From the NCBI GenBank assembly GCA_030064935.1, contig JASJEA010000019.1, forward strand, positions 1 through 44,523: a stretch of DNA of 44,523 nt. Direction: 5' to 3'. This DNA is from Crocosphaera sp. Lineage in GTDB: Bacteria; Cyanobacteriota; Cyanobacteriia; Cyanobacteriales; Microcystaceae. Each line of letters opens with the position of its first letter. Position 1 is the stretch's first letter. This document shows positions 1,990 to 6,522 of this stretch, one piece after another. The translations under genes and the position numbers were made by a program. Under the pieces are notes generated by a model. That model did no database searches. It was not told the DNA's origin and worked only from the letters and a program-made list of their open reading frames with translations.

Positions 1990-2865
1990 TTATGACTTTT
2001 GTAAAGGAAAATTCAACTGTTCCCGTTGTTGTAAATATAAGTTAGCAACTTCTCGCGCTAAATTACGAATACGACCAATATAACGGGTTCTTTCTGCCAC
2101 GGCAATCACTCCTCTTGCGTCTAACAAATTGAAGGAATGAGAACATTTTAAAACATAATCTAACCCAGGAAAAACCAAGCCTCGATTAATTAATTGTCTT
2201 GCTTCTTGTTCATATAAAGTAAATAATTTAAACAATAAATCTGGATCAGATGCTTCAAAATTATACGTACATTGTTCCACCTCACTTTGTAAAAAAATAT
2301 CCCCATAATTTATCTGATCGTTCCACTGAATTTTGGTGATTGCTTCCACCTCTTGTAAATACATGGCTAACCGTTCTAAACCATAAGTAATCTCAATGGA
2401 AACAGGATAACAATCAATTCCTCCACATTGCTGAAAATAAGTAAACTGTGTGATTTCCATACCATCTAACCATACTTCCCAACCCACACCCCAGGCCCCC
2501 AAGGTAGGAGATTCCCAGTTATCTTCTACAAAGCGAATATCATGATCTTCTGGTTTAATTCCTAATACTCTTAATGACTCTAAATAAATTTCTTGAATAT
2601 TGTCAGGAGACGGTTTAATTAATACTTGATATTGAAAATAATGCTGAAATCGGTTAGGATTTTCCCCATAACGGCCATCCGTAGGACGACGACAGGGTTC
2701 GACATAGGCAACGGACCAGGGTTCAGGTCCGATAGCCCTGAGAAAGGTATGGGGACTCATTGTTCCTGCCCCTTTTTCAGTATCATAAGGCTGGACGATT
2801 AAACAACCACGATCGCCCCAAAATTCGTTAAGTTTGGCAATAATTTCCTGAAAATTAATTGACAC
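1990..2865 (-). CDS. glyQ: Glycyl-tRNA synthetase alpha subunit
   Basis: 291 aa, normal length for the alpha chain of the bacterial alpha2-beta2 GlyRS (class II). It charges tRNA-Gly together with GlyS, which is not in this window. Strongly conserved blocks are visible: the N-terminal [14 protein letters not shown], then [18 protein letters not shown], then [17 protein letters not shown], which forms the aminoacylation core. It is transcribed divergently from the cyclase-like receptor at 3089, and a TATAAT-like -10 on the minus strand lies about 45 bases upstream. Confidence 0.97.
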
Positions 2866-2939: not shown

Positions 2940-3088
2940 GTTGATTCTATATTTTTTAAAGAACATTGTAAATTTCCTTATTTTTACCTTCACCCCGCTA
3001 AACATAAAGTTTGACCAAAATTTTAAGCCCCTTAACTGATATTTAAGTTAACCTAGGGGAAAGAAATAATAATGAAGCATCAAATTTG

Positions 3089-5227
3089 ATGAATTTTTTT
3101 AGTCGATTAAGTATCCAATCAAAAATAATGTTAATGCTACTAGCTGTTAGCATTGCCTCTATTTTAGTCATTAGTTATGTTGGTTACACCAGTGGAAAGG
3201 AAGCGATACTAGAGAATATTTATTATCAAATTACTGAGTTAAGAAATTCTCGTTCTCGGCAAATTCAATCTTACTTTAATTATGTTCAAAATCAAGCAAT
3301 TACTTTGGCTGAAGATCCCACAGTTATCGAAGCAATGGAGTCATTTAACCAAAGTTTTAATCAATTAGAAAATGAAGATATTTCTTCTAAAATGGTTTCT
3401 GAAATTTGGTATTTTTATCAACAAGAATTTATTCCGCGGTTGCAAAGGAATGTAGATGGAAATCCTGCGGTATTAAGTTATTTTCCTAAAAAAATAATTT
3501 CTCGTTATTTACAATATCATTATTTAGTTAAAAATCCCTATCCTCTTGAGAAAAAAAATAGTCTAGATATGGCCAATGATGGAAGTGAATACAGTAAAAT
3601 ACATCAAAAATTCCATGATTTTTTTCGATCAATTACCACTCGTTTTGACTATAAAAACTTAGTGTTAGTTGATAGTGAAACAGGAAATATTGTTTATAGT
3701 GTTCATAAAGATACGAGTTTTGCCACCAGCTTACAAGATGGACCTTATGCTTATAGTGGGGCAGCAAATTTATTTGAAAGATTGCAAAATAATCGTGAAA
3801 GAGGAGCCTTTGAGGTTATCGATTTTACTAATTTTAGACCTAGTTATGGTCAACCTATTGCTTTTATTGGTAGTCCTATTTTTAAAGGTTCAAATTTAAT
3901 TGGAATTCTCTTACTTCAGTTACCAGTTGATGAAATTAATCGCATTATGACAGGAAATTTTCAATGGGAACAGGATGGCTTAGGTAAAACAGGAGAAACC
4001 ATTTTAGTGGGCTCAGATTATTTAATGCGCTCTCAATCTCGCTTTTTAGTAGAAAATCCTGATAGTTATTTTAAAGAACTAGAAAAACAAAGAATACCTA
4101 ATAAAATAATTGAAAGAATTAAAGCTAATAATAGTCCTATTTTATTACAAGAAATTAGAACAAACTCTATTGAAAAAGCTATTGAAGGAGAGGAAGGATT
4201 AGGAATTTTAAATGACTATCGTGGAGTTTCTTCTCTAGTTGCTTACGCCCCTGTAAAATTAGCAGATAGTTTAGATTGGATAATTCTCTCCAAAATTTAT
4301 GTCAATGAAGCCTTTGAACCTATACAAATTTTTGGCAAAAGAGTATTAGTTACCACTGCAATTTTAGTGCCTATTGTAACTATTTTATCCTTATTTCTTT
4401 CCCGTCGTTTAGTGATGCCAATTTATCGGCTTATTTCAGGGGCAAAAAAAATTACATCTGGACAAAGTAATGTGGTAGTAACGGTTCCTTCTGAGGATGA
4501 ATTTTGTCAACTTGCCAGTGCTTTTAATAAAATGGCTAGAACTATTGATGAAGAAAAAGAAGCCCTAGAAAAACAAATTAGGAATAACGATGCACTGCTT
4601 TTAAAAACCCTTCCTGCCCCCATTGTCAAACGATTAAAACAAGGAGAAGAAGACATTGCTGATAAATTTCCTCACGTCACTGTATTGTCAGCTAATATTG
4701 TTGGTTTTGATGAAGAATGTGATCATCTAAGTGCGCAAGAAGCAGTAGGACTTTTAAATGATATTGTTAGTGCCTTTGATGATGCTGCCCAACGTCATGA
4801 CGTAGAAAAAATTAGTACCGTTGGTACTTCTTATTTGGCGGCAAGTGGCTTATTTGTGCCACGACTTGATCGAGACAAAGCGGTGATCGAAGTCGGATTA
4901 GAAATGCTGAGAATTGTGCGAGCTTTTAGTCAAGAAAAACACCTCAAATTTGAGATTCGTATTGGTGTTTATTCGGGAGAAGTGATAGGCGGATTATTAG
5001 GCAAAACCAAATTCATTTATAATTTATTGGGGAACACCGCCAAAATTGCTAGATTTTTAATGATTGTTAATTCTGTAGAAGGTCAACCAAATTCAATTTT
5101 AATAAGTCAAAATTTATACGAACCCTTGCAGGAATTTTATAAATTTTCTAAGATGGGGGAAATAGAAATTCCTGGGCGGGGGAAAACAGCAGTTTGGTTA
5201 TTAAAAGATGGTAGCCATAAGAGATAA
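3089..5227 (+). CDS. Membrane sensor with HAMP and a degenerate class III cyclase domain
   Basis: 712 aa from the ATG at 3089 (a TTG lies just upstream in frame). Order: short cytoplasmic N-terminus, TM1 at about 15-35, a large extracytoplasmic sensor region (about 36-415, Cache-like by layout), TM2 at about 420-438, HAMP to about 490, a coiled linker, and an adenylate/guanylate cyclase-fold domain at about 530-712. The fold signature is clear, but every key catalytic position is altered. The first metal Asp is N536 (SANIVGF instead of ADIVGF) and the second is T580 (VGTSY instead of IGDAY). The base-recognition Asp is N645. The transition-state Asn and Arg are K652 and F656. It is therefore probably a non-catalytic, nucleotide-binding or regulatory output domain. 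No operon partner is certain; a MacB-type permease follows after 77 bases. Confidence 0.85.
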   Translation: MNFFSRLSIQSKIMLMLLAVSIASILVISYVGYTSGKEAILENIYYQITELRNSRSRQIQSYFNYVQNQAITLAEDPTVIEAMESFNQSFNQLENEDISSKMVSEIWYFYQQEFIPRLQRNVDGNPAVLSYFPKKIISRYLQYHYLVKNPYPLEKKNSLDMANDGSEYSKIHQKFHDFFRSITTRFDYKNLVLVDSETGNIVYSVHKDTSFATSLQDGPYAYSGAANLFERLQNNRERGAFEVIDFTNFRPSYGQPIAFIGSPIFKGSNLIGILLLQLPVDEINRIMTGNFQWEQDGLGKTGETILVGSDYLMRSQSRFLVENPDSYFKELEKQRIPNKIIERIKANNSPILLQEIRTNSIEKAIEGEEGLGILNDYRGVSSLVAYAPVKLADSLDWIILSKIYVNEAFEPIQIFGKRVLVTTAILVPIVTILSLFLSRRLVMPIYRLISGAKKITSGQSNVVVTVPSEDEFCQLASAFNKMARTIDEEKEALEKQIRNNDALLLKTLPAPIVKRLKQGEEDIADKFPHVTVLSANIVGFDEECDHLSAQEAVGLLNDIVSAFDDAAQRHDVEKISTVGTSYLAASGLFVPRLDRDKAVIEVGLEMLRIVRAFSQEKHLKFEIRIGVYSGEVIGGLLGKTKFIYNLLGNTAKIARFLMIVNSVEGQPNSILISQNLYEPLQEFYKFSKMGEIEIPGRGKTAVWLLKDGSHKR

Positions 5228-5304: not shown

Positions 5305-6522
5305 ATGAAGTTTTTAGACAGTGTTAAAATGGCAACATCTATGCTGAGTGCCAATAAATTACGCACTAGCTTAACCATGTTAGGTATGATTATTGGTAAT
5401 GCTTCAGTGGTGGCCATTATTGGTATTGGTCAAGGGGCGGAAAATTTAGCGACTCAACAATTAAAAGAGTTGGGGCCGAATGTACTTTTTATTGTTCCTG
5501 GAACTCGCCAAGCCCGACGTGCTACCTTGGATTTACCAAAAACATTAGTCTGGGAAGATGCTCAAGCTATTGCCCAACAAGTCCCCAGTGTCAAAGCAGT
5601 TGCCCCTGAAAGAAATAAACGAGAATTAATTTCTTATAAAAGTGAAAATATCAACACTTTATTAATCGGAACCACCCCATACTATCCAAAAATTAGAAAT
5701 TTTCCCATTCAACAGGGACGATTCCTTAATGTAATTGATATCAAGAAAAACAGCCGAGTTGCTGTCATTGGTCAAGACATAGTTAAGCAATTATTTGGCA
5801 TCAAGAATCCCATTGGTGAATCAATTAGAATTAAAAATGTATCTTTTGAAATTGTAGGAGTGATGGCAGAAAAGGGCTCTTTAATTGGAACCAATTTAGA
5901 TGATACTGTGTTTATTCCCTTAACAACAATGACCCATCAAATTGTTGGTAAAACTTCTCCTTATGGGACAGAAGTTAGTTGGATTAATGTAGAAGCAAAA
6001 AATGGAGAAAGTGTTAGGGCTGCTAAATTTCAAATCGAAAATTTATTAAGACTAAGACATAAAATAACCAATGAGGATGATTTCGGTGTAGAAACCTCAA
6101 AACAAATGTTAGATATTGTGGGTAGTATTTCGACTGGATTAACGGTAATGTTAACTTTTCTGGCCGGAATTTCTCTTATTGTTGGTGGGATTGGGGTGAT
6201 GAATATTATGTTTTTTTCTGTAAGTGAACGTACCTCAGAAATTGGACTGAGAAAAGCTTTGGGGGCAACAGGAAATGATATCTTAGTACAGTTCTTAATT
6301 GAAGCAGTTCTTATGGCAATTTCTGGGGGGATCATTGGTGTTTTAACTGGGGTAAGTTTGGTGATATTGGTAGGAATAATTTCTCCTTTATCTGCTTCTA
6401 TTTCTGCTGTGCCTATTATTATTTCTTTAACAGTTTCCACCGCTATTGGACTAGGTTTCGGTGTGATTCCAGCCCAAAAAGCTGCTCAACTTGATCCTAT
6501 TGTTGCTTTGAGAAGTTCCTAA
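5305..6522 (+). CDS. MacB/FtsX-type ABC transporter permease
   Basis: 405 aa. N-terminal helix (about 15-45, containing LRTSLTMLGMIIG, the usual MacB_PCD start), a periplasmic core of about 230 residues, then three FtsX-type helices from about 275 to the end. The conserved SERTSEIGLRKALGA loop follows helix 2, and the C-terminus ends PAQKAAQLDPIVALR. These are hallmarks of MacB-family permeases that couple an ATPase to a periplasmic adaptor for export or mechanotransmission. No ATPase or adaptor gene is adjacent here, so its partners are encoded elsewhere and its substrate is unknown. Confidence 0.9.
   Translation: MKFLDSVKMATSMLSANKLRTSLTMLGMIIGNASVVAIIGIGQGAENLATQQLKELGPNVLFIVPGTRQARRATLDLPKTLVWEDAQAIAQQVPSVKAVAPERNKRELISYKSENINTLLIGTTPYYPKIRNFPIQQGRFLNVIDIKKNSRVAVIGQDIVKQLFGIKNPIGESIRIKNVSFEIVGVMAEKGSLIGTNLDDTVFIPLTTMTHQIVGKTSPYGTEVSWINVEAKNGESVRAAKFQIENLLRLRHKITNEDDFGVETSKQMLDIVGSISTGLTVMLTFLAGISLIVGGIGVMNIMFFSVSERTSEIGLRKALGATGNDILVQFLIEAVLMAISGGIIGVLTGVSLVILVGIISPLSASISAVPIIISLTVSTAIGLGFGVIPAQKAAQLDPIVALRSS

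Follow-up and report, generated by a model that had tools for sequence, protein, structure and literature searches.

A Crocosphaera dCache-HAMP receptor with a predicted dead class III cyclase domain belongs to a receptor family linked to MscS-type channels

Second-messenger domains can be kept as regulatory modules after losing their chemistry or binding, as in the degenerate GGDEF/EAL receptors LapD and PelD, and EAG-type channels carry a domain resembling a cyclic nucleotide-binding (CNB) domain but without such binding. Among the class III cyclases, the class IIIa adenylyl cyclases of cyanobacteria include the CyaG type, while catalytically incomplete halves exist in mammalian adenylyl cyclase and soluble guanylyl cyclase. 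CyaG is cited among the references of PMC4284465, and the bCNG channels are cited among those of PMC4560390 and PMC13312541. In Mycobacterium, cyclase-like genes lie near genes for CNB-domain proteins (PMC4886424, accessible part of the text). There, as in the system described here, a predicted cyclase-like protein is tied to CNB-domain proteins by gene context; unlike here, that part of PMC4886424 predicts the proteins to be cyclases with functional residues, and it makes no mention of an MscS channel.

The window, i.e., the whole stretch of 44,523 nucleotides of Crocosphaera sp. DNA that was analyzed, is contig C92 of assembly G000 (4.76 Mb, 319 contigs, 89% complete) and contains a receptor gene whose features are collected in Table 1. 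The preliminary description had claimed an intact frame of 712 codons ending in a recognizable class III cyclase fold, and both points were borne out: the frame is open for 712 codons plus a stop, and the profile of the class III nucleotidyl cyclase family (PF00211) matched the C-terminal domain significantly. The match of the sensor part to dCache_1 (E 7e-9, 36.1 bits) is below the Pfam cut-off of 45 bits, so this assignment leans also on the conservation across relatives. A protein 84% identical to the receptor is present in a Crocosphaera metagenome-assembled genome. The full-length similarity of the window protein to a family of channel-linked receptors spans the dCache, HAMP, and cyclase domains, and in a drawn tree it groups with that family on one branch. 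Mammalian transmembrane adenylyl cyclase C1/C2 and soluble guanylyl cyclase turned out to be among its best relatives of solved structure by sequence. An AlphaFold model of residues 490 to 712, built from three sequences, reached a mean pLDDT of 47.8, a low confidence, and no conclusion was based on it.

Table 1. Features of the receptor locus (positions in the window)
Feature	Positions	Strand	Basis or remark
glyQ, divergent neighbor	1990..2865	-	Arrangement common to seven same-genus orthologues and G048
Whole receptor gene, 712 aa	3089..5227	+	TTG at 3086 immediately 5' of ATG; open frame, 712-codon orthologues intact in six same-genus genomes
Extracytoplasmic dCache sensor, residues 41-410	3209..4318	+	Pfam match 185-400, alignment with relatives; wider borders are ours
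HAMP domain, residues 436-486	4394..4546	+	Pfam, E 2e-8
Signaling helix/cyclase linker, residues 489-524	4553..4660	+	Alignment with relatives; borders are ours
Predicted pseudo-cyclase domain, residues 525-706	4661..5206	+	Pfam Guanylate_cyc, E 3e-34 (3.4e-34); dN/dS 0.055
First metal Asp to N536	4694..4696	+	Alignment
Base-selecting Lys to S576	4814..4816	+	Alignment; sixth position, absent from the preliminary description
Second metal Asp to T580	4826..4828	+	Alignment; codon synonymously variable among orthologues
Base-selecting Asp to N645	5021..5023	+	Alignment
Transition-state Asn to K652	5042..5044	+	Alignment
Transition-state Arg to F656	5054..5056	+	Alignment; Tyr in one orthologue
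MacB/FtsX-type permease	5305..6522		77 bases downstream of receptor; ATPase match absent

The glyQ neighborhood served as a marker of orthology, and a functional link of glyQ to the receptor is probably lacking. The MacB/FtsX-type permease was rejected as a partner of the receptor, as it had no match in the stretches retrieved around the orthologues; other Crocosphaera genomes have a different downstream gene, a frame of about 430 aa that looks protease-like by eye. In genome G005 (locus L045, contig C35), a frame of 1,035 aa opens with the same dCache-HAMP sensor and continues, again by eye, with histidine-kinase-like and receiver-like sequence, and the sensor thus appears to be common to different outputs.

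We then aligned the cyclase domain with its relatives and with three other class III domains of the same genome. At residues 536, 576, 580, 645, 652, and 656, the window protein carries N, S, T, N, K, and F, versus D, K, D, D, N, and R in the intact relatives. Accordingly, the two metal-binding Asp residues of active class III cyclases (N536 and T580), their transition-state Asn and Arg (K652 and F656), and the base-selecting Lys/Asp pair of class IIIa, or CyaG type (S576 and N645), are all absent. Five of these substitutions had been named in the preliminary description and were all recovered in the alignment, with S576 added as the sixth. The catalytic motifs align with those of the relatives without gaps, and a clade-specific insertion of four residues directly follows residue 657. 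Arg655 adjoins the position of the transition-state Arg; a shifted reading of that residue is conceivable and would need a gap inside a helix. Judged by these residues, the cyclase domain of the receptor is predicted to be catalytically dead.

To describe the wider family, we searched 291 genomes of the order with a profile and retrieved 80 stretches from among the matches listed and the loci of the close orthologues. The resulting sample comprises 84 family members, including the window protein; all fractions given below describe this sample, and the matches left out include those in G201, G246, G302, G136, G135, G096, G169, and G240. In a phylum-wide sample, 18 of 292 genomes had a match at an E value of ≤1e-160, and 4 of these lay outside the order. 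An outgroup of 21 class IIIa cyclases was composed of 20 non-family matches from the order-wide search and one from locus L094. All 21 have the residues DKDDNR, as do two further frames outside the tree. The tree, of a quick kind, was computed from the HAMP-to-cyclase columns minus the six catalytic columns; it placed the 84 family members on one branch, separate from the 21 class IIIa cyclases, with an uncertain root position, since the test for monophyly of the outgroup returned False.

Within the family, the number of canonical residues kept varied over the entire range: six in 6 members, five in 21, four in 10, three in 9, two in 11, one in 7, and none in 20. Both metal Asp residues are kept in 26 of the 84 members, and both the Asn and the Arg are kept in only 9. 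By parsimony without regain, the D, K, D, D, N, and R positions were lost 9, 8, 8, 7, 13, and 16 times, respectively; with regain allowed, the changes numbered 9, 8, 8, 6, 11, and 7. These counts indicate a graded and recurrent loss, and, as far as residues can tell, catalysis has been lost gradually and repeatedly in the family and not in one event. The preliminary description had all positions changing together; this holds for the Crocosphaera clade, in which a single long branch carries all six losses, but not for the wider family with its stepwise, repeated loss. Two loci, L122 (G145) and L123 (G265), each contain three tandem family receptors (DKDDSR, DKDDTR, and DKDDSA) upstream of one channel gene; the transition-state Asn is absent in all three receptors, which possibly respond to different ligands and feed one channel. 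One Crocosphaera genome contains a second, more distant pair of a receptor and a channel (L151, G012:C76), with the receptor residues DKTEQG, a set that is not intact.

Close orthologues of the receptor were found in nine other genomes (seven of the same genus, G048, and G038), with 74 to 87% identity over the aligned parts; in G015 (79% complete), a receptor orthologue was looked for and not found. The set N, S, T, N, K followed by F occurs in eight of the nine genomes, and the same set with Y in place of F occurs in the ninth (G038). The recurrence of the substitutions in nine other genomes means that they are not a sequencing artifact of this contig. Orthologues with intact residues, which the preliminary description had regarded as evidence against its reading, are absent among the close orthologues and appear only in six relatives at about 34 to 42% identity.

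The dN/dS ratio, determined by the Nei-Gojobori method for 28 pairs of eight unbroken orthologues, was 0.055 for the cyclase domain, 0.114 for the dCache domain, and 0.094 for the whole gene; the mean dS was 0.84, and the ratios are therefore rough. In the same eight sequences, codons 576, 580, 645, and 656, four of the six with a substitution, vary only synonymously, the residue being fixed, and Lys652 is fixed in all eight. The low dN/dS, together with fixed residues encoded by varying codons, indicates that the predicted dead domain is being kept, and more strictly so than the sensor. The proposal that the domain has been under selection for a new role, for which the preliminary description had left nucleotide or partner binding open, and has not simply decayed is supported by both observations.

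Clustering of the open frames around the family genes revealed one other protein, present at 66 of the 80 loci. This protein is a channel of the MscS type that carries a CNB domain at its C terminus (MS_channel and cNMP_binding matches in all five channels scanned). Outside the Crocosphaera clade, the channel gene lies downstream on the same strand for 68 of 75 family genes; among the other seven, four are cut off by the end of their contig, the channel of another (L125) is on the opposite strand, and two are channel-less (L093 and L124). For the 69 linked genes, among them that of G038 from the Crocosphaera clade, the edges of the open frames are separated by a median of 42 bases. The distance does not exceed 300 bases for 59 of them, and the longest gaps (up to 4.9 kb) are those of tandem receptors sharing a channel. 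Linkage was found for 9/11, 6/7, 11/11, 8/9, 9/10, 20/21, and 5/6 of the genes with zero, one, two, three, four, five, and six canonical residues kept, respectively. Since the rate of linkage is not lower where catalytic residues have been lost, the pairing is indifferent to the catalytic state of the cyclase.

We also compared the evolutionary distances of receptor and channel domains (58 pairs). Those of the cyclase domain correlated with those of the channel pore (r, 0.90) and the CNB domain (r, 0.89) and less so with those of the receptor's own sensor (r, 0.71), a hint only, as shared descent and unequal rates confound these values. The partial correlation of the cyclase domain was higher with the pore (0.58) than with the CNB domain (0.48), and the CNB domain is thus not singled out as the contact.

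The partner channels share the MS_channel plus cNMP_binding architecture with the bCNG channels. They differ from the latter in that their genes accompany that of a receptor with a usually incomplete cyclase, and in that the phosphate-binding Arg of the CNB domain is missing from all 65 readable rows (Ser in 63, Ala in 2) of an alignment of 70 channel rows, 5 of them gapped, from 66 loci. The CNB Glu is kept in 56 of the 65 rows. The Arg is also absent from the five channels seen beside fully intact, six-residue cyclases, and its loss therefore either preceded the loss of catalysis or was independent of it.

Among five other CNB-MscS channels inspected in the genus, four keep the Arg and one (L205) is without it. 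In three same-genus genomes (L202 in G016, L203 in G014, and L204 in G012), the gene for a Cya2-like cyclase with the residues DEDGNR is followed by one for a protein of about 270 aa and then by one for a CNB-MscS channel; this channel has the motif PRTAS, which we take to be the canonical CNB motif. The middle protein carries the segment LLFLGSGSAFTVG and presumably has a metallo-beta-lactamase fold. In the window genome, the DEDGNR cyclase and the gene for the ~270-aa protein lie together on contig C37 (L207), and the PRTAS-type channel lies on contig C302 (L206). The guanylyl cyclase Cya2 has been described as having the same Glu/Gly pair as this cyclase (PMC4886424, accessible part of the text), and the row of three genes is a candidate cGMP-gated channel operon. 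By its residues, the genus looks to hold one chemically competent-looking module and one without key residues at both ends.

In the Crocosphaera clade, linkage to the channel is kept at only one of nine loci (that of G038, at 74% identity); no channel was found beside the window gene or beside its eight nearest relatives. An unlinked channel orthologue with 72 to 74% identity is nevertheless retained in seven of nine same-genus genomes and is present in pieces in an eighth (G017). The frame adjoining the channel in L208, L209, L210, L212, and L214, and one frame away from it in L211, we take to be pdxH. In the 89%-complete window genome, a search found no channel orthologue, and a query with pdxH, the usual channel neighbor, gave no match; contig C16 carries a conserved neighbor of the channel locus near its end, with no channel on the part searched. 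The absence of the channel from this assembly may reflect either an assembly gap or a real loss.

Of 50 genomes belonging to the taxonomic family, 16 have both genes, 1 has the receptor only (the window genome), 1 has the channel only (G015), and 32 have neither (Fisher's P value of 6e-11, uncorrected for kinship or linkage). Presence was scored at E values of ≤1e-70 for the receptor (4.5e-11 in the next best genome) and ≤1e-35 for the channel; in the genus, the latter cut-off sets the orthologues apart from other CNB-MscS channels (6e-28 or weaker). Where the genes are linked, co-occurrence amounts to one locus counted many times, and the informative unlinked cases, i.e., G048 and the genus, form one related group; in it, both genes are present in 8 of 10 genomes, including G017 with both in pieces. 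Together, gene linkage and co-occurrence provide good support for the MscS-type channel with a CNB domain as the partner of the receptor, and the partnership would hold in the window genome as well, although the channel was not found there.

The reading that we prefer, and regard as reasonably probable, is that a ligand-sensing pseudocyclase regulates an MscS-type channel with no second messenger in between, probably because the two proteins touch. The observations behind it are that key residues of the cyclase are lost, that purifying selection acts on the domain, that the channel is linked irrespective of the catalytic state, that both genes are retained after their separation, and that the CNB Arg is gone. 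The extracytoplasmic dCache domain would sense a ligand, and the signal would run via the second transmembrane helix, HAMP, and the linker helix to a non-catalytic dimer of the cyclase fold. The output would be a conformational change of this pseudo-cyclase dimer, not cAMP or cGMP, and this change would act on the MscS-superfamily channel, most likely by touching its C-terminal Arg-less CNB domain. The lack of cyclase activity, the dimerization, the direct contact, the direction of gating, and the partnership in the window genome are what we infer. The six members with intact residues suggest an ancestor able to make a cyclic nucleotide, and they themselves may synthesize cAMP. Since the five channels seen for the intact members are already without the Arg, direct coupling may have come first, freeing the cyclase to decay. 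More tentatively, and with some doubt on our side, these channels could be built from two former cyclic nucleotide domains, a dead cyclase gating the pore via an Arg-less CNB domain. The messenger would then have been replaced repeatedly and in parallel, and in Crocosphaera the change would be complete and the partnership kept with the genes apart.

Other explanations of the same observations were weighed against this one. The pseudo-cyclase could bind a nucleotide such as ATP or GTP without turning it over and thereby tune the signal of the receptor, a role compatible with the channel partnership. The fold and the glycine-rich pocket segments are kept (by eye in the alignment) and Lys652 is invariant, as such a nucleotide sensor would have it, but both metal Asp residues and both base-selecting residues are lost and the replacements across the family are unrelated and occur in many combinations, unlike one conserved new pocket; we regard this role as rather unlikely. 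That cyclic nucleotides from elsewhere still gate the channel, with the operon shared for a common purpose without contact between the proteins and the dead domain acting on another target, we hold to be unlikely. The CNB domain does match Pfam well in all five channels scanned and mostly keeps its Glu, yet the Arg is missing throughout, whereas it is kept in the channels beside the Cya2-like cyclases of three same-genus genomes.

It is quite improbable that the domain is the non-catalytic half of a heterodimer and modulates an active cyclase, as in mammalian C1/C2 or soluble guanylyl cyclase. The region around T580 (TVGTSYLAASGL) resembles the metal-less C2 halves of the mammalian enzymes in alignments; however, with both the C1-type metal Asp residues and the C2-type Asn and Arg missing, neither shared site would be complete. 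The three other class III domains of the window genome (one DEDGNR, Cya2-like; two DKDTNR) have intact metal and transition-state residues, with Thr or Gly at the base-selecting Asp, and none has the class IIIa set. The same types of cyclases occur in the same-genus genomes (residues read for a few), and G010, given as 100% complete, has only four PF00211 matches. A heterodimer with another cyclase was set aside, as the 89%-complete genome yielded no class IIIa partner. Neutral decay, in which the gene is a pseudogene with a frame open by chance, appears highly improbable. The receptor frame is broken in two of the nine other genomes, once near residue 78 in G038 and again in G017 (L155, contig C233), but the low dN/dS in the predicted dead domain and the fixed residues with variable codons speak against decay. 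In G017, the adjoining glyQ is split as well and the channel orthologue lies in pieces on three contigs, which suggests an assembly or sequencing error, the alternative being a real loss of both receptor and channel; the broken copy was therefore not taken as evidence of decay.

The receptor belongs with the CyaG-type cyclases to one subfamily by residue set, as exemplified by the class IIIa outgroup, but the window protein is without all six catalytic and specificity residues, has a dCache sensor, and has channel-linked relatives. The halves of the mammalian C1/C2 enzymes and of soluble guanylyl cyclase complement each other, while no complementing partner was found here. With LapD, PelD, and the EAG-type channels, the receptor-channel pair would share the principle of a second-messenger domain reused as a regulator; here, another enzyme family is involved, and degeneration has affected the maker-like as well as the reader-like domain, which are encoded by linked genes. 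The open-licence literature matches listed, judged by their titles and the opening of their abstracts, include none that deals with a channel-linked pseudo-cyclase family. Dead second-messenger regulators are thus already known in other families, and the channel-linked pseudo-cyclase variant appears to be new.

Pseudoenzymes are mostly encountered singly. Here, over 84 sequences, one gene pair spans the range from an intact to a fully dead cyclase, with the partner kept in most, and this series offers a comparative test of whether a signaling enzyme can become a pure allosteric switch. It also follows that cyclase counts based on PF00211 include proteins that are very probably unable to make a cyclic nucleotide. 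To our knowledge, little is known about the stimuli of cyanobacterial MscS-type channels beyond membrane tension; if the reading preferred here is true, it would name the input for a group of these channels.
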